Positions 9,445 through 50,834 of a DNA stretch of 64,000 bases are shown piece by piece. Under the pieces are notes generated by a model. It was not told the DNA's origin. It worked only from the letters and a program-made list of their open reading frames with translations, and made no database searches. The stretch comes from Halicephalobus mephisto (taxonomy: Eukaryota > Nematoda > Chromadorea > Rhabditida > Panagrolaimidae): contig SWDT01000001.1 in the NCBI GenBank assembly GCA_009193035.1, positions 1,860,001-1,924,000 on the forward strand. Direction: 5' to 3'. The number at the start of each line of letters is the position of its first letter. Positions within the stretch are counted from its first letter, which is position 1. Made by a program: the position numbers and the translations under genes.

Positions 9445-12400
9445 ATGGACCCTCAAAACCAGACTGTTCAATTACATCTTCTAGGGGCAAGAAGGGCTCC
9501 TATGAACCAGGTGTTAAATATCTTTTTGATTTTGATGTGAAAATCTTTCCAGGATGAATTTGATACGAAGTTTAATTACATGAAGGGGACCAGGAATCGT
9601 CGGATCTCTCTAGACAGTCATCAAGTAGAGTGCTGTGTCTGCTGCAGACTTAATGTCAAGGTCCCATACAGAATCCCTTTGGAGTCTGAATCTACCATCC
9701 CTAGATCAAAGGCCTTCTTAACTAAATATCTCCCCATCGTTGGATGGCTAGGGTCTTACGAAGTCAGGAAAAATATTTCAGGAGACATCTCTGCAGGGAT
9801 TTCGTTGGGTCTTCACAGTGTTGCTCAAGGTCGAGATCAATAATTTATTAAATTTTATTTTTATACTTTTTAGGATTTGCGTTCTCTCTTCTTGCGGGGC
9901 TTCCGCCAATTTGTGGATTATATACTTCTTTTTTTGCGGCTCTTATTTATACTTTCTTCGGAACGTCTAGATTTTCGTTCTTTGGTAATTAATTTCATCC
10001 GTTTAATCCAAATCTCAAGTCCATTTTAGGCAGTAATGTGATTATTTGTTTCTTTGTCAGGAACATCATTGAGAGACATTCCGTTCCTTATGATTATATT
10101 TACCTATTATCGCCCAATTCCACGCAGAAACCCGAAGCCGATGGGATGGAGCAGATCAAAATCGCCTCTACTCTGACTTTTCTGTCAGCAGCTATTCAGG
10201 CTCTCTTATTTACCCTCAGACTTGATTTTGTATTCAGCTACATTTCCCAGCAAGTACTTTCTGGATTTTCCTTTGGGTTGGCGATAAGGATTGTTTTCAA
10301 CCAACTACAACATGTTCTCCACACCAAGGGAAACTCTTGTATTTCTGAGTTGACTGTAACCGTTGGTGTTAAAATTACATATCTCGATTATTCTTAAATC
10401 TTTCAGTTGGTATCAATGTCTTCCAAAGTCACTCCTCCATCTTATAAACAATGTGCGTTCTTAGCAGCTGAGAATAAGCTTTTGAATAAGTCAGCTACTT
10501 ATGGGTTTCCATTGTATCTAAGAAATGAAAATCCTGCAACATCCATAAATAGAGACGACGTAAGTTATAAATTTTTCCACTTATGATAATCTTAGGCCAT
10601 AGTGTCTTGTTTCCCTTTGGGATTGCTTGGATTACATAAACCTCTACACCATGGCGCTCTCTGTATGCGTAATCTTGTTTTTGCTCTTTGCGAAGCAGAT
10701 TCTCGGACCGTTGCTCCAGATGAAGGTTCACTCTCCTATTCCCTTTGAGTTCTTGCTGGTCGTGATTACATGTCTATTATCTGAATTAACGGATATCAAG
10801 GGAAGGTACTACGTAGAGACTTTGACTCATATGTCTTTTGGGTAATCGTTAATTCATTTACTTTTATTTGTTTAAATAATACTATTCAGATTCCCAATTA
10901 CAATTCCTCAACTGGACAAGTTTGATGACTTGGCCTTAGATGCCTTTGCTTTAGCAATGCTTGTTTTTGCATCACATAACCGTTTAACTCTACACATGGC
11001 CAAGGAACACAAATATATTGTTGATGTTCAAATGGTAAGTAGTTTTTTTTATCAATTAGAAAACAGTTGTTCTAGGAACAAGTAACTCTGGCAGCCATTG
11101 GGGTTACTTCGTCTTGGTTCGGGGCACATCCTCCTGGAGGTTCTCTAAACAGAAATGTAATGGCGATAAATGCAGGAACCAACTCTATGGTAAATAAAGT
11201 TGATTACAATGTTTCGGAATAATTAAATTATTGCAGTTGTCGAATGTGGGAGTTGTAATCATTATGCTACCTTTCATCTTTGGTCTTTCGACCTTATTTG
11301 TCTCTCTTCCTGTGGTAAGTTTCGTCTAAAAAACAAATTTTCAAAACCCCGAGGTACTATATTCACTAAGCAATACAATCAAAGTGTTAATAGTCCTGAA
11401 CACATTTTTATTTGAGAGAGAAGAGTTTAAGTGATTGATGTAATGATCAACAATTTAATTATCATTGAGTAGTAATTGCTCATTGAGACACAATTATAAA
11501 GCTATTTAGTAATGTCACGCAAGGTCATGATCCTTGAGTTCTTTCTATAAGATAAACGAGGGCTGAGTTAGTAAAAGCAGAAGATAAAGATTCCATGGAA
11601 ATAAGAGCTGCTTGTGGGTTATCAATGAATGAGATATTCTTTCTCTGATTAGTATATTATTAGGAAGTCACGCAAAGTATCAACTTCATTTGTGCAGGAC
11701 AAATAAATCAGATGCTTTGTAATTACAAATACAATTAGGAGTTTTCCGTAGCGCTAGAACTAGAATGCAAAATACCAAGATCACTGATTATATATCAAAA
11801 GTCTTCTGTCATCCGAAGAATACAACGTGAAGCAGCTACTGTCTCTCAGGGACTTTTGTGTTAGTCCCTACTCTCTCACAATATCTTAAACATCCATACA
11901 AGATTATTTAAAGCCATTTAATTCTTGTTCTTTATCACTGTGGAACTTCCTAGAATTTAATAGAAATTTTTGAAATTCTGCAGCACCCAGTAGAAACTTT
12001 TAAAATTAATATGACTTGGGATTTCTGACAGTTTCTAGAGCATTTTAGTAATTTGTGTCGAGGTAATTTTGTAATGTCATTTATTTTTAAATTTTATAAT
12101 AATGTGATGGATTTAAATTTAAAGTTAAATGTGACCTATTTTAGTGTGTTTTATCCTGTTTCGTCTTTTCTGCTCTCTGGGAATATTTTGGAGGGATCAC
12201 AAAATTTACAGTCCTCTGGAAAATCTCGAAACTTGATGTTTTCACTTGGATTTTCTCCTGTATCGTGGCTATAGTTATAGCCAATAGCACCATCGCTCTG
12301 CTCTCGTCAGCGTTCTTCGCTCTCTGTACCATCATCATCAGAACGCAGTGGTTAGTTCCGTTAAATTGAATTAAGTCTTCTCTTAATTCATCTGGACATT

Positions 12401-13363
12401 CAACTTTGTATAATTTAGGCCAAAATTTCAACTTCTCGTGAATGTAACAGGTTCAGGGGCATATTATGCGGAAAGAGCATATTACGGTTCCGAATTACTC
12501 GATGATTCTGGTGTAGCAGTTATGAGATTCGAGGCCCCATTACTTTTCAACAATTGTTCCCAGTTCAAGAGAGATGTGTTTTCTGTCGCTGACAATATTA
12601 AAGGGTTTGGCCAAAGAACAATGCAAAAGGCAACGAAATTATTTCAGACAAATCCTGGGGGTCGGAATAGGGACTCGGACGGGAAGTATGAAGTCTGCCA
12701 ATGCTGCCTCTTTGGCGGGAATCACGAAAGACATCCCAATGAGGTCGACTTTGCTGATATCCGGAGATATCGTTCCTAACTACGACACTATCTCTGCAGA
12801 TACCACTTTGACAAAAGTCGTAATTATCGATTTCTCGTCCATTACAATAACAGATGTTTCGGGTCTTGAAACGATGGTTGAGATCTATTCAGAACTCGCC
12901 GAACGAAAAGTCAAATTGCTTTTTGCTTCCGTCAATTGTGGGTGATTTACATGGATTTAAAGTGACATTTGTCAATTCTTTGCAGCAACGATTCGCAACC
13001 GATTCAAAGAAATCGGGGGATATGACATCGTCCCGAAGAGCAACTTCTTCCCGAGCGTTCACGACGCTGTTCTTTATTCGCAACAACTAGGGGGAATGGT
13101 GGCCCCGAGTTTCCATATGAGGTTCCAAGAATATTCAATAATCAATTAAATATAAGCATTCTAGTGTTTCGATGAATGGCTGTCGTGATCTCATAACTTT
13201 ATCCACAGCTACATCCCATCATGATATCGCACAAGGAAACACCAGTGCCGTCACCGAAACCTATCTTGGAGCTTCTCCCCGGCCCTCCTTGCCTGAAGCT
13301 CGATCATCATCCCCTCCTCTTTCACCTACCAAGTTGCGAGCGACAAGTTCTATTGGAAATTAG
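9445..13363 (+). CDS. SLC26-family anion (sulfate/chloride/bicarbonate) transporter with STAS domain
   Basis: Many small exons. The N-terminal half carries the SulP signature region ([11 protein letters not shown], then [20 protein letters not shown] with [15 protein letters not shown]), and multiple hydrophobic segments follow to about 11315. A long intron (~11316-12145) precedes the last membrane segments ([20 protein letters not shown]) and a C-terminal STAS domain (about 12540-13100: [20 protein letters not shown]). The start is uncertain: 9445 ([10 protein letters not shown]) is the first ATG in the open frame, but an upstream exon is possible. At the 3' end the transcript may stop at 13149, or use a 44-bp intron and finish at 13363 with a Ser/Pro-rich tail. 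Substrate cannot be read from sequence. The gene starts only ~300 bp after acdh-11. Confidence 0.87.
11938..12105 (+). repeat. HSE-like 10-bp-periodic array element, copy A (in SLC26 intron)
   Basis: From about 11940 to 12053 the sequence follows a degenerate TTCnnGAAnn pattern with 10-bp spacing (e.g. GGAacTTCctAGAatTTAat, then AGAaaTTTttGAAatTCT). It is followed at 12054 by a tail beginning TGTGTCGAGGTAATTTTG that matches the tails of the three other copies. It lies wholly in an intron ~830 bp long, far longer than the neighbouring ~45-bp introns. Confidence 0.6.
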
Positions 13364-18973: not shown

Positions 18974-21924
18974 CTGCAATTAGAAAATCACCACCAATAT
19001 TTTTTGATCAATGCCGAGTCTGAATTAATCCCAGCCATAGACTTGAATGCGAAGAGCATCAGTCCGCAAAACTGTCTTTACACTAGGGTTTACTTTGTAA
19101 GACTACTTTTGACGAATCTAATGAGCAATGATTGCGTTTCTCAATAACTACCTACGTATTTTCCCTTGTTCTTTAGACAAGATCACTGTGCGCAAATATT
19201 TGAGAAGTGTGAACGGCACTTTCCACCGTATAAATTTGAAAAATCATACTGTCCTTTAGATTACGTTTATATCGTTGTATGTTGTGGTTCTCTGGAATGT
19301 GTATTATTTGTTCAAGCTTCTTCACACTTACATGTACATAAACTGCGCAACGTGATTCGTTGTTGAGATTTTGCAACAAGAAAATTGATTAATTTCTCCG
19401 GCAATTCTCAGGTTCTCTTCTTTTACAAAACTGGACAAGGGAACCGTCAGTTTTCCTTTTTTCTGTCCTCGTTTCGCTGTTCTCTCGACGGTTTTTAATT
19501 AATCAAAAACGACTTGTACTCACGTATGCGAAGACTGAACAACAGACGCATATTCATCACAGATTTAGTATGAACTTCATGGTTAGATATTGGCTTCTTT
19601 TAAGCAATAAATTATCCCACGTTAGTTCCCTTCCATCAATTATCAGGTTTTCAAGAATTGAAATCGTAAGCACAGAAAGATTAATTGTCCGTCGTCGCCG
19701 GAAATTACAAAAAGTCTATTCTGTTTACATACTTTCATTAATTTCCAAGATAATTTATGAAATGGTTAGTATCCCTGGAGAAATATAAGAACATTAACAG
19801 AAAGAGAAACGGTCATGAAGAAATACGGAAATACGTCACTTGAGAGATTTTTACGACTAAATTTCTCTGAAGGGGACTTTTAAAGCGGAATAATCCAAGT
19901 ATCTTTTCTAATTTAATGGATTTTACTGAAGAATACTGTAGTACGTGTAGCGGGGATAACCTACATTTTTCTGGAAGTTCAACAGAATCATCAGATTTCT
20001 CATTTGTTCGTTAAGATTTATTATTTTTCAGCCAAGAAGAATCATATCTATAAATTCTTCTTTATACTCCAGGAGAAAGTAAAGTTTGCTGATGAAAGAG
20101 TATTAGATGTTTAGGGGAAGAATATTAGTTTTTATAATTCCCGTTTATCTTCTTGGTGGAATAAATGCAGTATGTATAAGGTATTTATATATTATGCATC
20201 ATTGTAATACTTTGTTGGGATGGGTATTTGTATCCAACCTTGGGAATTACTCCTTCAACACGTTTACTAACTTGATTTCAGAGTCTATTAGGCAACAAAA
20301 CCTTAACAGCCAGAACCAAGATGCAAAAAGATCTGAATCTTATTAAATAATATATCCAGATCTACTCTTCCGTACTTGCATTCTTCAGGAGTTTTCAGTT
20401 GTTATATTTGATAAACGATATCTTTGTTACATACACTCCCTACCTTAAACCTTAAGAACTTAACATCCATGAGTAATCTGTTTCGTTCAATCTTTTAAAG
20501 TTTCGTTGTTTTATAACTTCTACCACAGTTTTGAAGTCAATGAAGATAAGTAAGAAATTAAGCTCGAAAGTTGGTCATAAAGTTCATATAAATTTTTTTA
20601 ACATACATTCTATAATTAGTACTGAATAACAGATGGAACCTTCACAGAAAACGTTAATCAGTTCCAGATCCAGTTGAAAAGATATGTAGAATAAGCATTA
20701 ATGATGAGGAAAAAGGGGCTAAACTGCCCCATAGAGGAAATTCAGCAACTCCTGAAGAACAGAAGCTACATGGCTTCACGGACCAACCTTACTGAATTTA
20801 TCAAACTATGAAAGATGACTATATAAGGGGTTTCAAAGAATTATGATGCATTTTAGATGAACACATTTTTAGGGTTTATAGAAAAAAGACAAAGTGCAGA
20901 AAACAACAACGAGGATATCGAAGGGAAAACAAGGAACACGACTAATTAAGTGAATCAATCTGGCACCGTGATGCAAAGAGTTTTACTCAAACTTATTGAT
21001 CCCTAGAAAGATTCTATTCGAAGTACACAATCTAAAGGGAAATATTCCTGGAGTTCTTCCACTAAAAATCTGTAAAACTGTGAGATGCTTCAAATCAGAC
21101 AATATCACAAACGAAGTACTAAAAGCAGAAAGATAAACTGTGAAAATTGTAAATTTTATTTTTTTAATGACTGTCTGCAGTAGGAAGATATATAGGATTA
21201 GTGAGAGAAACTTACCATCTTATGGTGAAGATATTTGTGAAGGAATTGGGAGAAAGCTATTAAATTGTCACTAAATACTTATATACAATATAAGATATTC
21301 AAAAAAGTAGATAAATGAACCCTATGAATACCCTGGGAGCATTTATAGAATTTCCAAGTGTCCAAAACCATGAATATAAGATATTTAGAAAAATCTGAAA
21401 ATTTGTATTATTTTGTGATAATACTCGTTTCTAAATTTTACAATGATTTAATATTCCGTTCATTTAACCATAAGATCAATAAACAGCGTGAAAAGACTTT
21501 CAAAATCAGCTATCAGTCGTGGATAAATGTCGAGAAGTACTATTTTGTATAAACAAATTAAATTTCCTTTGTGAGATGATAACGATTGGCTAAAATCCAC
21601 TTTGTGTAGAAAATAGTCTACATATAATCGATTCCATCATGTCTCTAAATCAGATTCTTTATTTGAACAAAGAGAATCATAACAATTAATAAATGCATTA
21701 ATTATTGACTCTGGATTATTTCAATCACTCTGAAATTATTATCTTTGGAGGAAGACAATGTGGAATCAAAATTGTTCAATAATACCCACTAGATTTTAAA
21801 CCACTTTAAGAAAACAAAAGTAACTGTCAGAAATAACTTCTTATGCAGTAAATAAAGGATAATAAAGATACTTTACACCATTTATTAGCAGAAATCTCAC
21901 TTCTGTTATAAAACTGTCCTCAAG
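18974..21924. other. AT-rich intergenic region downstream of lon-1
   Basis: No well-supported gene; only the small candidate at 20107-20350 deserves mention. Other ORFs here are short and of AT-rich random composition. Confidence 0.4.
20107..20350 (+). CDS. Possible small secreted peptide (two exons)
   Basis: An ATG at 20107 opens a 21-residue signal-peptide-like segment (MFRGRILVFIIPVYLLGGIN, then A). A good donor, GCA|GTATGT at about 20169, and an acceptor, TTGATTTCAG at about 20280, keep the frame and add SLLGNKTLTARTKMQKDLNL then IK and a stop at 20348-20350, giving about 43 aa. No family recognised. The intron (~111 bp) is longer than typical here. Evidence is the signal peptide plus the in-frame splice only. 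Confidence 0.3.
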
Positions 21925-31704: not shown

Positions 31705-33089
31705 ATGTTGGGATTAAGTCACAAAATTTCCCAAAGGATGCTCAGCACGGAGATCATGCGAAAGAGCTTGATTGCGGTCGTTCAGTTAACTTGTACCCAT
31801 GATAAGGAACAAAACTTTGCAAAATGTAAAGATATGGTAGCGAGAGCCAAGGAACTTGGATGCAAGATGATTTTCTTCCCAGAATGTACAGATTACATTG
31901 GAAGAAATCGTCAAGAAGCTTTGGACCTGGCTCAAGATGCTGAAGGACCAACAATCAAAGCCTTTTCTGAACTCGCTAAAGAACATGGAATCTGGATCTC
32001 TGTTGGGGGATTCCACAACAAACGAGATCCTTCTAAGCATCCTTTCAACACCCACTTGATTCTGAATTCCGATGGCTTAATAACTCAGAAGTACGATAAA
32101 CTTCATCAATTTAACTTGGATATCCCCGGAACCCGTCTTTTGGAGAGAGAATTTTCCACAGCTGGAGAGGAAGCAGTTCAACCCGTCACCACTCCTGTTG
32201 GAAAAGTTGGAATGAACATTTGCTACGATGTTAGATTTCCGGAAATGGGAACTTTCTATCGTTGGCGAGGAGCTCATATTCTTGCTTATCCGTCTGCTTT
32301 CACTGTCCCTACTGGAAGTCTCCATTGGGAGGTCCTTCTAAGGTCGAGAGCCATTGAGAACCAATGTTATGTTGTTGCTGCTGCTCAATTTGGAGTTCAC
32401 AACCCGAACAGAAGTTCCTATGGTCATGCCATGGTTGTGGACCCTAATGGAGCCGTTATCGCTCAGTGTTCGGACAAGGAAGGGATGATTGTTGCTAATA
32501 TCGATTTGGATTATCTCGATCTGGTTAGATCACGTTTGAATATGCTTGGTGATCGTCGAGGGGATCTCTATGCCGTTCATTTCAAGGAGAAACTCCCAAT
32601 CGAGACGCCCCAGAAACTGGGTCCTTTGACAATCGAACCTGATGTCATTTTTTACGAAACAAGGAATAGCTATGCTATTGTGAACTTGAAGCCAGTCACT
32701 GATGGACGTAAGATTATCAACTATTAAATTGTTTTTATCTTGACTTTCTAGATGTATTGGTTGTCCCGAAGAGAGTCACTCAATATTACAAAGATCTCTC
32801 TGTGGAAGAAGTCTCGGACTTGATGACAACAGTCCAAACGGTCCAGAAGATGCTTGTGGAACATCACAAAGTAACAGATTGTACAATTTCTATCCAAGAC
32901 GGTCCATTAGCTGGTCAGACTATCCCTCATGTCCACGTTCATGTCGTTCCTCGTAGACCAGGAGACTTCAAAGACGATGATATCTATCGAGAAATGGAAG
33001 ATAAGACCGATAGTCGTCAACCTCGTTCAAAGACGGAAATGGCTGATGAAGCTGCTGTTTATAGAAAAACCTTATATCCAACACAGTGA
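31705..33089 (+). CDS. nft-1: NitFhit: nitrilase-FHIT fusion protein
   Basis: Exon 31705-32707 and exon 32752-33089 are joined within codon DG|H to give 446 aa. The N-terminal half is a nitrilase-superfamily amidase with Glu (FFPECTDYIG), Lys (KYDKLHQFN) and Cys (NICYDVRFPEM) catalytic positions intact. From about residue 305 it is a FHIT dinucleoside triphosphate hydrolase (FYETRNSYAIVNLKPVTDGH; QDGPLAGQTIPHVHVHVVPR) with the histidine triad HVHVHV. Flies and nematodes fuse these two proteins, which are separate in mammals (the NitFhit 'Rosetta stone' pair). It lies 145 bp after the FAM210-like gene on the same strand. Confidence 0.96.
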
Positions 33090-40938: not shown

Positions 40939-43900
40939 AAATTCGATTTCAACAACTTTCAGATAATCTATCTTCTGTACTGTATTTGTGAAGCTATACA
41001 TGTAACCCTTTAGTTTACGGGATCTTTTACTAAGCTGGTTTTTTCATTAAGCATAATTTCGAGAATAAAGGCTGAAATTAAAACCAGGAAAATAATTGTC
41101 CCATTGTTTATTCCAAAAAGTGCCATTGAAGGTCAGGAAAAAGAAAGCTATAATACTTTTCCTAGTCTTTTCTAAAGAGTTTCGAAATTGAAAGAATGTA
41201 ACTTTGGTGTTCGAAAATTTGTCGGAGAAAAGGAATATAGCAAACTCGAAAACAATCTCCGCGGTTTAAATAAGATTTGCCGTTTGATCCCCGTTTCTAT
41301 AAAATTTGACTCTTCTTTGAGAGCTCTTTGCAGAGACTCATCCTAGTAAATTTCCGCTAATTTTTTTCAATAAGAAAATGTATATTTTGATTTGATGTTT
41401 AATTCGTCCTTCTGGAGCAGAAACCGCTCTCAGCCCGTGAATCTCCCTCCATTGAGCAGAATAGAACAAAATTGTGAGTATTACTATTTTTAATTTACAT
41501 TTATATCTGGTAGGTGGTTCCGTTTTTATTCTTCCAGCCCGGAGCAAGTAATTAGATTAGGTTGGCAGATGAGCTTCCGGAGATAATGGGATAATTAAAG
41601 GAGCACGAGGCAAATTTATGAAAACGAATGGGGTTGTTGGACATTGGTGTCAAGACAACTCATCTGTTTTTTGAAGATACTTTTCGCATTAGTCCTTATT
41701 ATGGATTTTGACGTGTTTCATTTGTCCTCCGAAACTAGATTAATGAGGTATTTCTATAGTAGATTTACTTTGTAATAGAGTCCTGGAAATGATAATAGAG
41801 GAAATCTCCATCACGGGCTCTCGCGGGCTGTACGTCGCTGTCCTGTTTTGGCACGATTTCCCATTCCCTCTTGGAAGCGAGTGAGTTCGCCATGGTCGTT
41901 AGGGGTTTCGCTGCAGGAGTTTATTACGTATTTCTCAATAATCCCAAAATGCGATTTTTCCTTGATTATAAATCCGTAAGAACTTTTAAAGCCCTTCAAT
42001 CTACCATATAAATTTCTAGGGCCTTTCAAGACCTCCATAAAAGCCTTCAGAATCTAATAAAATATCCTGAAACAGTTAAGAAACTTTATTTGAACTTTTT
42101 AGGATTTTGTAGATGTTTTTGAATTATTCCAGAATCCTCTGAGAATTTCTGAAACCAACATCTGGAATCAAAAGCTCCGGAACTTTCTAAATAGTGCCGG
42201 AAATTCATGTCGGGATAATTTCGTAACAACGCCTATTTCCGCTTTTATAGTAGTGTAATATTCGACGTCATGTATTGTTGGAAAAAATGCCAATACCAAA
42301 AAAGAGTACGGATAAATGTAATATTGAAATTTCATCAAATTATTATGGCTCTGGCAGGAAATTTAGTAACTAAGATAACTTTTGCGTGGCTTTGGGAAAG
42401 AAAATGAAAATGTTACTTAACCTCCTTTATTGCGAGAAACATGTGGTCTTGTGGTTTATTTTCTGTTAAAAGTTGTTCGGATCAGTTTACCCCTTAGTAC
42501 TCAAGGATCGTTTGCAAAGGTTGACCAAGTGACAACTGACCAAACGGGAACTGGGGGGTAAGGACGTTCGTCACAATCTGCCCGTCTTGATAATCTGTCT
42601 CTTTCTTCATTTCGGGATTTGCTATTTCTTTATAGCACCCATTTTAACACCTGCCAAATAGAAGTGACACTGCGCTTTCTGCCTTCCTATTGGTTTATAA
42701 TTTAATTTTCAATCTTGGCTTCCAATTATATTTCCAATTATCACGTACGGTGAACAAGAAAATCCAATATTACGATATTGGCTAAACGAAATTTTCAGCT
42801 CTTCGAAGACCGGATAATGCCCCTCGAATCGGGAACAGAGTGAACAGCAGTAAGCTTGTTCATTACTTGGAGAGTTCTCCAGAAGCTCTTTATACTAGGT
42901 GGGTGGTCTTGTTTTTCCGGCAAATTTGCTTCTCGTTTTGCTAAATTTGCCGAATTCAACTTGATGCTCCAATGTTCGTGTTGGTTTAACGTTTTGAGTT
43001 CTATCCAATTTTTATAGCCCATAAAAGATTTCCTCTGCACTATGTCATGCTATTATTCTCTCCAGGGACCCAAGTAGCAAATCCTATTCTAGCTTTATAT
43101 TTTTAACTTTTAATCCTTTCCACGATTTGAATGCCAAAAGCGGCTTGGGCATTTCATTTGGACACTATGGAAAACACGCAAAAGATTAGGTTGAAATGAA
43201 TCCCTGTCTCGACACGATTTCTGTTAATTATAGTTTTTAACCCGTCGAAATTTTTAGTCAGATGTTGGATATGGCTAATCTTCTTAACTATCAGAGACAA
43301 GTAATGTCTTAACGGAACTTTTATCCCGCTGTTTGACCTTTTCCGAAAATAGCGTGAGAATTTCAGATCAGGTGAATTAAATTGAATTCACAAAACCAGA
43401 TATTCAGCAAGCCTATTCTTACTTTTAGCACGTGGTGGAAAATGTTTACCCTGTTAGGAAGTTTACTTTCATTGCAAAAACAGGATACATTATCGTTCGT
43501 GGACTTTGATCTTTTCCAAACATTCTTTAATTTTCCATAAATATTTTATTTTAAGAAGGGTTATAATTTACTCAACCCTTTTTGCCACCTATGAAGCTCG
43601 TTTATCCAAACTCGTTCTGGCAAAAGTTGACAGCGCATCACATAAATTCTCTTTTGACAGAGGCTTTTGTCTGCTTGGATAAACTTTTCCTAAAAGCAGC
43701 AAAAAAGCCCATGGCATCCGAATGACCGAGTGTGGATATACTTTTCCTTCTACTCCAAAAAGTATATTGTGTGAGGAAGTAACCAGCTTGGAGAGAAAGG
43801 AAAGAAAGTGAATATTATTCCAAAGAAGCATTTCATGCCATAGAATTACGCCGCCCACATTGTTAAGCTTACCGAGGCTTTTTCAATCATTTTTATTATT

Positions 43901-44290: not shown

Positions 44291-46615
44291 ATGGCCTCTA
44301 CTGCAGAGGACCCTGCAGGTACCTCAATGGAAATGCATCAGCGCTCTGATAACCCGGAGGACCAGCAGACTGAAACGGCAGAAACAGACACGCTCTATAA
44401 GCGTTTCAATGAGACGGAAGACGTGGAAGCTCGGATGCCTCCGGAAAAGACCTTCAAAAGCAGTGTCAAGGTTGAGGTTAGAGTTGCAAATAATATTCGA
44501 ATAACTGACTTTTTAAAGGATGTTATTTTGCGATTGAATATCGGTGGAGCCAGCTACAGAATCAGAACAAGGTCGGTACTACGGAACGGACCGAATACCC
44601 TTCTGGGAAGACTCTGCAGGATGGATCATGAACACCGAAGACAATGGGCTGATGGGTACTTCGAAGACTCGGATGAGTACTTTTTCGAGCGAGTACCAAG
44701 GCATGATATGCGAGAACCATTCTTGTTTATCTTGAGATTTCAGATATTTTGATCCAATTTATGATTTCTATGCTGCAGGGAAACTACACGTTCCTAAGGA
44801 TTTATGTTTCGAGAAATTTATGGCTGAATTGAGGTTCTGGGCCGTCTCGAAGGCCAAAATGGATGAATGTTGTTCCCCATTTGCGCAGTATTGTCTGATG
44901 CGAAAGGCTCCCACGGACCAGCCGGTTGGTTACCCCATTTCTATTCTACCTAACTTTGAATCCAAATTAGCTAGATGAGGAAACTCTAAAAATATCAAAA
45001 TATCGCTATTTTAGGAGGAAGATGAGGATGAACTACAATTACCAAAATTCTTACGAACAAAAAAATTAGATCCAGAAAGTTTTCTTTTTCGAAATTTTCC
45101 CAAAAACCAAAAAAGTCAAAAATAACAATTGAACTAACACGTTTTATTGCTAATAAGAACCTACTGTAAAGTTGACATGTCCAGTAGATGAATAACAGGA
45201 CCTTAGATGGGGATTATTGATCATGTTTTAGGAGAAAGATCATTTCATCGGGTTACGGTGTGCCAAGATACGGAGAAGGCTCTGGTTGATCCTGGAAGGC
45301 CATTCCCATTCGAGATGGTGGAAACTCTTCGAAGTCACTTCTACGAGCTTTGTCGTCCTCAGTATCGCTGCTTTGATTTTAGGTTCGATTCCGGAATTCC
45401 AAGTGCCTGAACCCCGAATCTCAAACCCCTACGCAACACTGTAAGGAACCTGTTCTATTTAATTATTGTCTTTTTATTTCAGTGTCCCCGTTACTTATCC
45501 AACCTACCCTAAGGTCAATGGACATACTGTATCGACCACTACTGTACTCAAAGATGGGGAAGACAACAAACCGGAGATGGTGGAGCATCCCATATTCAAT
45601 TATGTCGAAAATATCTGCGTTGTTTACTTCACTTTGGAGTATTTGCTCCGTTTATGGGTTGCCCCGAGGAAATTATCTTTTGTCAAAGAGTTTTTGAATA
45701 TCATCGATCTACTCGCCATCGCCCCCTTCATGTTTGAAGTCATTCTGATTTTGGTGAGGTTTCTGAAATCATTGTGAAATCAGTCTTGAATAGAATTTCT
45801 TGAAAGTACGAAGAATCTTCCAGAACCCACTAGAGAGTTCTGAGATTTTCCAAAATCTCCTAGAAAGGTTTAGGATATTACAGGACTCAATCGGTAGTTC
45901 TGAAACTAAAAGTTTTACGGAATCTTCCAGAACATATTAGAAACTTTTGGAGTCAATATTGAAAGTCAAGACTTATAGAAATCCCTTAATGCTCTAGAAA
46001 TGTGTGTCAAGACGATTCCTTAATTATTTCTATTTCTCTAATAATATTGTTTTCCAGGTAGGAATAAGTGGGGAAAACGTAAGAAAGGTCCGATGGGCTT
46101 TCTTGACCGTCCGTCTCCTCAGAGTCCTGAGGGTTGTCAGGATAGCCAAACTCGGTCGATTCAGTCCAGGTCTCGCCAATTTTGCCTTGACTCTGAGGAA
46201 AAGTAAAAAACACACGCAGATGGTCGGTGTAGTTATGTTGACGATCATCATATTCTTCTCTACTCTGATTTACTTCCTAGAAAGAGATGAGCCAAATACT
46301 CAATTCACTTCTATTCCAGCGGCTTTTTGGTGGTGCTTGTTCTCGCAGACGAAATGGGTTCCTCAAACTGCTGGTAGGTCAACGAGACTAACACAGTAAT
46401 TTTGCAATACTATTTCAGCCGGTAAGGTCGTCGGAGGCGCTGCCATCATATCCGGAGTCCTCGTACTGGCGCTTCCCATTACGATTATGGTAAGATTGTC
46501 CATGGAGATAAAATAAAGCCAAATGTTCTAGGTGTCCAATTTCATGCAAGTCGTCAAACTCCGGGAAGAAAAGATTATCAAACGCTACGCTCAACAGCAT
46601 GGCGACCAAGTTTGA
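44291..46615 (+). CDS. exp-2: EXP-2-like voltage-gated K+ channel, with lesions in S1 and in the pore
   Basis: Nine exons: 44291-44470, 44519-44700, 44744-44924, 45015-45114, 45232-45440, 45483-45753, 46058-46373, 46419-46489 and 46532-46615. T1 domain: DVILRLNIGGASYRIRTRSV and RYFDPIYDFYAAGKLHVPKD. S2-S3 (IFNYVENICVVYFTLEYLLR), S4 (VRLLRVLRVVRIAKLGRFSP) and S6 (VVGGAAIISGVLVLALPITI) are intact, and their wording suits the EXP-2 Kv type of C. elegans (pharyngeal and gut muscle excitability). Two defects: S1 is largely missing at ~45365-45390 with a frame change, and the TVGYGD filter is absent at ~46333-46360. Exon 2 ends with a GC donor. The gene is either a recent pseudogene or affected by assembly error. 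Confidence 0.85.
45795..46050 (+). repeat. HSE-like 10-bp-periodic array element, copy C (in Kv channel intron)
   Basis: Contains canonical three-pentamer HSEs, GAAtcTTCcaGAA, twice (about 45813 and 45921). Between them degenerate 10-bp units continue in phase (TTCtgAGAttTTCcaAAA, TCCtaGAAagGTT). A tail with GTGTCAAGACGATTCCTTAA at about 46003-46022 aligns with the other copies. It fills most of the 304-bp intron 45754-46057. Confidence 0.62.
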
Positions 46616-49789: not shown

Positions 49790-50150
49790 GAACACTTGGG
49801 AATCTACTAGAAAGAATGTGAAACCTTCAGGAATCTCATAGATGCTTCTGGAGTCTTCTAGAGCTCTGTAAGGTTTTTTAGACATTTTAGAATCCATCGA
49901 AATCTTTTGGAACTTTTTGGAATTCTGTAGAAATTCCCAGAATTCTATAAAAGTTCTTAAACTCCAATGAAAAACATTGGAAAGCTTATAAGATTATCTG
50001 GAGCCTTTCAGAATCTCGTAAAATTCCCAGAATATTCCAGAATCAGACATAAAATTTGAGAACTTTTTGAAACTAAAGTTTAAAAGTTTTTCGAAACTTA
50101 TGTTAATTTTATAATAACGTCTATTTTAACTTTTATTATGGTATTATTAC
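49790..50150 (+). repeat. HSE-like 10-bp-periodic array element, copy D (beside small HSP gene)
   Basis: The longest and clearest array, about 49797-50060. Consecutive pentamers run TTCagGAAtcTCAtaGATgc, TTCtgGAGtcTTCtaGAGct and continue degenerate for about 25 units. The tail at 50099-50150 (TTATGTTAATTTTATAATAA, then CGTCTATTTTAACTTTTAT) matches copies A-C. It lies about 150 bp beyond the 3' end of the small heat-shock protein gene. Confidence 0.65.
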
Positions 50151-50296: not shown

Positions 50297-50834
50297 TCAA
50301 GAGGAACCTCGAAGGGCTGTGATCGTAAGCATGCCAGTTCTAGAAAAAATAAACAATTAAATAAATACCTAAAACAACTTACGAGCTGAGTTCAGTTGCA
50401 ATCATTTCTAGTCTGACATCTCCTGGAATTGAGAATTTCCGAGTAAAAACTTTAGTTATAGTGGTTTTGTTGTCCAATTTGGTTTCCTGTTCCGCTTTGA
50501 TCGTCAACAAGCCAAATTCCATGATGACTTCAATGTCTTCAGGCTTGAAATTGGACATGTCTATGATAGCAACAAACTTCTTAGGATCGTTTATAATCTT
50601 GGATGGCTTCGTTCTGATCTTCTCGAGTTGTCTGTCCATCTCCACCACGGAGTCGGTGTAATCTAAAGGATTTTTGTGGATCCGCGGCTTCTGCCAGCCC
50701 GGGGACGATGAACAGTCTCCCGGAGGAGTTGCAAAGTCAGGTTTATAGAAACCCCCATCGGAGGAATACCCGCTTGAGCTCATGGACGAGCCTGGTCTTC
50801 TAGGACTCGTTGCTGGAACAGCATTTGGTGACAT
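50297..50834 (-). CDS. Small heat-shock protein (alpha-crystallin/HSP20)
   Basis: Exon 50834-50383 plus a last exon 50339-50297 give 164 aa. The N-terminus is Ser/Gly/Pro-rich (SSMSSSGYSSDGGFYKPDFA). The alpha-crystallin domain includes FVAIIDMSNFKPEDIEVIME, LLTIKAEQE, TRKFSIPGDVRLEMIATELS and the C-terminal STGMLTITA strand, encoded across the intron. The start at 50834 sits directly behind TTTCAG, suggesting trans-splicing; an in-frame ATG at 50843 would overlap that acceptor. ATP-independent holdase chaperone. TTCTAGAA and TTCCAGAA sites lie upstream, so heat-shock control is plausible. Confidence 0.9.

Follow-up and report, generated by a model that had tools for sequence, protein, structure and literature searches.

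Arrays of heat-shock elements (HSEs) carried by Helitron transposons are known from Caenorhabditis, where they are bound by HSF-1 after heat shock, as stated in the portions of the two reports available to us (PMC6927752, eLife 2019; PMC6765114, NAR 2019). The HSE-acquiring elements named in these portions are Helitron1_CE, Helitron2_CE and HelitronY1/Y1A/Y4_CE (PMC6927752, PMC6765114), and the remark in a preliminary description of the present DNA that HSE-bearing Helitrons occur in Caenorhabditis is therefore established in the literature. Among the animals surveyed in PMC6927752, HSE enrichment in Helitrons was seen only in Caenorhabditis, and the available text suggests a possible restriction to that genus. 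Two related systems have been described in other contexts, again according to partial texts. In four Caenorhabditis species, Helitron-related satellites are built from repeats of the palindromic decamer AGAANNTTCT (PMC4595182, BMC Evol Biol 2015), and the roughly 60-Mb genome of the rhabditine nematode Oscheius tipulae contains many dispersed helitron-like sequences (PMC8022731). Our literature search, which was of partial coverage, found no report of HSE-bearing Helitrons outside Caenorhabditis.

The window analysed here is the whole 64-kb stretch of DNA, which is part of contig C55 in an assembly of 59.9 Mb and 331 contigs; all genome-wide counts given below refer to this assembly. Four loci in the window carry arrays of GAA and TTC with a 10-bp period, and we consider it probable that all four belong to a single dispersed family, likely of non-autonomous Helitrons with predicted HSF binding, whose copies have since diverged. 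Table 1 lists these copies together with a possible fifth one and the neighbouring features.

Table 1. Features of the window. Head and tail profiles are described in the text; z is the lag-10 self-match against 1000 dinucleotide shuffles for the interval in brackets.
Feature	Position	Strand	Description
Copy 1	11938..12108	-	Short decayed array; head profile 12107-11956, E 4.3e-16; lag-10 z 3.7 (11938-12105)
Copy 2	41985..42258	-	Best-kept terminus, TTACACTACTATAAAAGCGG..., with array; head profile 42258-42104, E 9.2e-28; tail-only profile E 7.7e-15; lag-10 z 3.8 (41985-42265)
Copy 3	45771..46053	-	Head profile 46037-45910, E 1.1e-9; array match 45866-45791, E 3.2e-5; lag-10 z 2.6 (45795-46050)
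Copy 4	49790..50147	-	5' terminus near 50147, long HSE-like array to about 49790; head profile 50144-50014, E 4.5e-9; array match 49956-49868, E 1.8e-5; lag-10 z 6.7 (49790-50150)
Possible fifth copy	21342..21450	-	Decayed head without obvious array; head profile E 2.7e-5 (reversed window 0.15)
Small heat-shock protein gene (Hsp20/alpha-crystallin)	50297..50834	-	Two exons, 164 aa as read; PF00011, E 3.6e-9, and exon joining
Perfect three-unit HSE GAATCTTCCAGAA	45813..45825; second copy 45920-45932	.	Exact pattern scan
Perfect three-unit HSE GAATATTCCAGAA	50030..50042	.	Exact pattern scan

From Table 1, the 10-bp periodicity noticed earlier at the four loci lies above dinucleotide shuffles at each of them (z 2.6-6.7), with lag 30 slightly above lag 10 at 45795-46050. 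When the best 25 listed 150-bp segments of the window are considered by their lag-10 match, 22 fall at 49.7-50.0, 11.8-12.0 and 42.0 kb and the remaining 3 elsewhere (22.7 and 36.0 kb), and the 45.8-kb locus is absent from these 25. Triplet and dyad counts were compared with 2000 shuffles. In-register GAA/TTC triplets are above the shuffles at all four loci, the observed value being reached in 41, 8, 8 and 0 of the 2000 at 12, 42, 45.8 and 49.8 kb, respectively; the last locus is the strongest, with 14 triplets in 49790-50090 compared to 4.7 in shuffles. Exact dyads with 5-bp spacing number 0, 2, 5 and 3 in the same order (reached by 2000, 143, 0 and 92 of 2000 shuffles), and a clear excess exists only at 45795-46005. 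The 12-kb array, which has no exact dyad, is decayed. When the window is taken as a whole, dyads show no enrichment, with 96 observed and about 94 expected. An exact pattern scan of the window gave five perfect three-unit HSEs, three of them inside arrays (45813, 45920 and 50030). Since the copies at 49.8-50.1 and 45.8-46.1 kb keep such perfect units, they are predicted to be the likeliest still to bind HSF-1.

The similarity among the loci extends to the tail that adjoins each array. In an alignment of 10 tails, the four of the window included, the mean column identity is 65%. A head profile of the first ~150 bp, consisting of the tail and the first part of the array, was built from 12 copies outside the window, which were picked via similarity to the 42-kb copy, tail-derived patterns or the HSE pattern. 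In the window its four top-scoring matches coincide with the four loci, each on the minus strand, compared to a best E of 0.15 in the reversed window; because the 12 copies were chosen partly by their likeness to the 42-kb copy, the score of that copy is expected and the other three loci are the fairer test, and because the profile includes the early array, each score is partly array-to-array similarity. With a tail-only profile the 42.2-kb locus is significant, and the other three window loci are not (E 0.41, 0.67 and 1.1, with 0.83 as the best value in the reversed window), although these three weak matches have the correct strand and lie immediately next to the arrays. The tail that the preliminary description assigned to all four loci is thus supported by the alignment and by the ranking of the head profile on a single strand.

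The family is also abundant outside the window. A 29-base tail pattern with at most 3 mismatches matches 308 places in the genome, and a 30-base pattern extending deeper into the element matches 640, the backward control being 0 for both. Together with the recovery of all four loci by a profile from outside copies, these counts agree with the single dispersed family that had been proposed. The arrays were counted with a six-unit HSE pattern, (GAAnnTTCnn)x3 with at most 1 mismatch and with overlapping sites counted separately, and 338 sites were found compared to 0 for the pattern read backwards and 2 for a 6-bp spacing. Generic richness in GAA/TTC at other spacings was rejected on the last of these values. 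There are 21 distinct loci with zero mismatches, and 20 of them were analysed (C30:87030 was left out). The register runs on for 60 bp on both sides of these 20 loci, reading A[A/G]AAnnTT[T/C]T. Outside the 28-bp cores, AGAAnnTTCT occurs 48 times compared to 3.1 in dinucleotide shuffles (15-fold) and TTCnnGAA 122 times compared to 18 (7-fold), while the corresponding values are 232 and 149 for AAAnnTTT, and 5 and 10 for the reversed AAGnnCTT. The enrichment of the decamer around the arrays of these 20 loci, with the in-register triplets in the window, bears out the earlier reading of the 10-bp unit as HSE-like.

Tails and arrays are found together at some of these sites. In 6 of the 20 six-unit loci a tail at E < 1e-3 lies within 851 bp, though tails are common in the genome and part of this pairing could be chance: loci not chosen for HSEs gave 5 tail matches at E < 1e-3 in about 30 kb, three of them in one locus (L066) that lies beside a young element of the kind described below. 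The tail adjoins the array in four of the six loci (L095, L096, L097 and L107), is intermixed with it in L089, and is present without being adjacent in L093. The converse comparison started from the tails. L026-L055 are the 30 places listed first, with the fewest mismatches, among the 308 tail-pattern matches, and are not a random sample. The overlapping L039, L043, L045 and L055 were left out of the count, as was L026, a duplicate of the 42-kb copy; 29 copies then remained, the four window loci among them. They were split into types A and B according to whether the 110 bp next to the end contain ACTACAGTA or a close variant, a criterion set post hoc after the sequences had been inspected. The 14 B-type copies have a mean of 1.86 dyads on the element side compared to 0.21 on the outer side (p 0.002). 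In the 10 B-type copies outside the window, 17 GAA/TTC dyads lie towards the element and 1 towards the outside (p 0.008), and the lag-10 match is likewise higher on the element side (p 0.01). No dyad excess on the element side was found in the 15 A-type copies. In several places (L030, L031 on C5; L054/L055 on C57; L007 on C113) the 5' end occurs in short tandem arrays with steps of about 85-150 bp.

Read on the opposite strand, the tail is the left (5') end of the element, and one tail variant starts a young family. Helitrons begin with TC and are inserted after A; their 3' end consists of a hairpin followed by CTRR, with T as the next base, and there is no target-site duplication. With a 1.2-kb query of the young family, the query and at least 16 long copies at 93-96% identity, plus one at 82%, were obtained among the 40 of 141 candidates that were scored. 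By comparison of copies, the young element is about 1.8 kb long. It starts with TC, preceded by A in 9 of the 10 copies read, and it ends with a hairpin of 8-bp stem, ten bases and CTTG, with T following in all 12 ends read (13 were found); the flanks are A/T-rich, which reduces the weight of these A and T counts. Of 8 copies in which the flanks of both ends were compared, 7 lack a flush direct repeat and the eighth has one of 2 bp. The ends of the young family are therefore Helitron-like, being of Helitron type except that CTTG takes the place of CTRR. Among the HSE-bearing copies of the window, the junction of A with TC is kept in copy 1, reads TT in copy 2 and is eroded in copies 3 and 4. 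None of the HSE-bearing copies yielded a 3' end with hairpin and CTRR, and it is by the related 5' end that they are labelled Helitrons. An all-versus-all BLAST of the HSE loci for a common 3' end gave only dominating low-complexity matches, among the matches listed, and an exact tail variant that occurs six times among the listed matches of the 30-base pattern, inspected at 3 of these places, showed short or tandem ends and no young HSE element. Exact ends, with insertion between A and T and a CTRR terminus, had been named in the preliminary description as the mark of a Helitron. For the young relative, the insertion after A, the hairpin, the following T and the lack of duplication agree with a Helitron; the CTTG in place of CTRR does not, and the HSE copies have yielded no 3' end.

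An autonomous Helitron member encodes a RepHel transposase. The interior of the young relative contains peptide pieces in a broken frame, with no single open frame across them in the loci read. One fragment of 79 aa has a sole PDB match, a weak one (E 0.21), to Helraiser, the bat Helitron transposase, and its Pfam match, below the cut-off, is to the unrelated Prok-E2_B (E 0.006). Another fragment matched nothing in PDB, a further one matched only superoxide dismutase (E 1.3), and Pfam gave no Helitron family for four fragments. A protein database search found no relative. By eye, other pieces look like the part that precedes the Rep domain in Helitrons. In the genome search, PF14214 gave one sub-threshold match and PIF1 matched at two places, on C60 and C122, with stops in frame; no intact Rep/helicase and no autonomous element were found. 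If the family moved recently, its transposase was therefore supplied in trans or escaped the search.

Other explanations were weighed against the Helitron-like family. The tail could be the terminal inverted repeat (TIR) of a DNA transposon of the MITE or foldback type with an internal satellite, the same end having been captured by a Helitron-like element. This is unlikely. Inverted tail pairs do exist at L041 and L047/L057, where they span 236 and 491 bp, but 24 of the 26 distinct tail loci (L026-L055 with overlaps merged) have no inverted partner so arranged, and the young relative has no TIR, possesses a 3' hairpin and is inserted between A and T without duplication. As the main reading, a TIR element was rejected because inverted tails occur at only 2 of the 26 loci.

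We also regard it as improbable that the arrays are satellites or PATC-like A/T clusters which grew in place without any HSF-1 role, with the 10-bp step due to DNA bending or germline chromatin. Such clusters would agree with the strong phasing of A and T in the array flanks (62-70% and 57-64% at their positions), with the predominance of A over G at the G position of GAA (40% and 28%) and of T over C at the C position of TTC (38% and 29%), and with the moderate enrichment of AAAnnTTT. However, this enrichment is far exceeded by the 15-fold and 7-fold excess of AGAAnnTTCT and TTCnnGAA, the reversal and spacing controls gave 0 and 2 sites compared to 338, and the arrays adjoin a defined transposon terminus. 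Pure chance, by which AT-rich DNA would contain unrelated GAA/TTC runs, could appeal to the 12-kb locus without an exact dyad and to the unenriched dyads of the whole window; it is nevertheless highly improbable, because the profile from outside copies gave E values of 9e-28 to 4.5e-9 and the periodicity is above shuffles. It was rejected on the head profile, which places the four loci at the top.

In the preferred reading, that of diverged copies of a Helitron-like family, each copy opens, on the minus strand, with a terminus akin to the 5' end (~60 bp) of the young element, and the array follows. The following mechanism may be envisaged. A Helitron transposase encoded elsewhere, now or formerly, would have recognised this common 5' end, and rolling-circle copying would have placed the element into A/T-rich sites, introns and gene flanks. 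Upon heat shock, cooperative binding of HSF-1 trimers to the arrays might promote transcription of the element or make its end more accessible, and an array near a gene could serve as a heat-responsive enhancer for that gene. An HSF DNA-binding domain is encoded in the genome; matches to it lie at C181:147427-147712 and 166179-166328, about 19 kb apart. The window copies are decayed, so most of them are probably relics.

The four copies lie in or near genes. Copy 1 is probably intronic in a gene for a STAS-domain (SLC26-like) transporter, whose STAS domain lies at 12526-12942. In a voltage-gated-channel-like gene, copy 3 occupies nearly the whole of a 304-bp intron (45754-46057), as judged from the intron borders and the joined reading frame, and the next exon encodes an Ion_trans domain. 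Copy 2 precedes the first recognised exon of this gene, which is potassium-channel-like, by about 2 kb. Copy 4 is in an intergenic stretch and begins 150 bp beyond the stop codon of the small heat-shock protein gene. Upstream of this gene, within the window, the exact pattern scan found no perfect three-unit HSE. That the downstream array influences the gene is a speculation.

Some observations concern the host. The 22-base spliced leader of nematodes (SL1) has 110 exact occurrences in the genome, with 0 for the backward control, which makes a nematode host likely; besides dispersed copies there are divergent pairs about 320 bp apart (C125, C216, C249 and C314). Rfam gave nothing at gathering score on the window and four SL1 loci and no 5S rRNA within 1.5 kb of the four spliced-leader copies; below the gathering score the SL1 loci gave six miRNA-family matches, all in L025. 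At 31705-33089 of the window, a Nit ORF is followed by a Fhit-like ORF (by eye), to be compared with the NitFhit fusion of C. elegans. The Nit protein and C. elegans NitFhit (PDB 1EMS) have the same residue at 171 of 320 query positions, or 53%, a value that stands without a within-Caenorhabditis yardstick. With this degree of identity, the association of HSEs with Helitrons may reach beyond Caenorhabditis.

HSE arrays in Helitrons are a known kind, and what may be new is the host. We tentatively suggest, at somewhat less than even probability, that in a nematode outside Caenorhabditis an array of the same decamer is joined, in hundreds of copies, to the 5' end of a Helitron of its own, that rhabditids at large have retained or re-invented a heat-shock switch at the end used in transposition, and that insertions, for example that next to the small heat-shock protein gene, contribute to the host heat response. 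If the host is outside Caenorhabditis, the pairing of HSE and Helitron is older or recurrent, and in that case it becomes testable whether the array is a transposon adaptation (heat-gated copying) or a by-product. Since the arrays adjoin a minimal common 5' end, a simple profile is available for finding such elements elsewhere.

When compared to the known systems, as far as the available texts describe them, the Caenorhabditis HSE Helitrons are annotated, some have a transposase and their HSF-1 binding was measured, whereas the present copies are known from their sequence, and neither a 3' end for them nor an intact transposase was found. Both consist of dense overlapping HSE arrays in dispersed, mostly fragmentary Helitron (here, likely Helitron) sequence near genes, and in both the array is within the element. 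The genome of Oscheius tipulae is similar to the present one in its size class and dispersed helitron-like sequences, with HSEs unmentioned in the available part of PMC8022731. The decamer AGAANNTTCT of the Caenorhabditis satellites is the same decamer that is enriched 15-fold around the present arrays; but in the part of PMC4595182 at hand the Caenorhabditis decamers are described as satellites, while the arrays here adjoin a common transposon 5' end.
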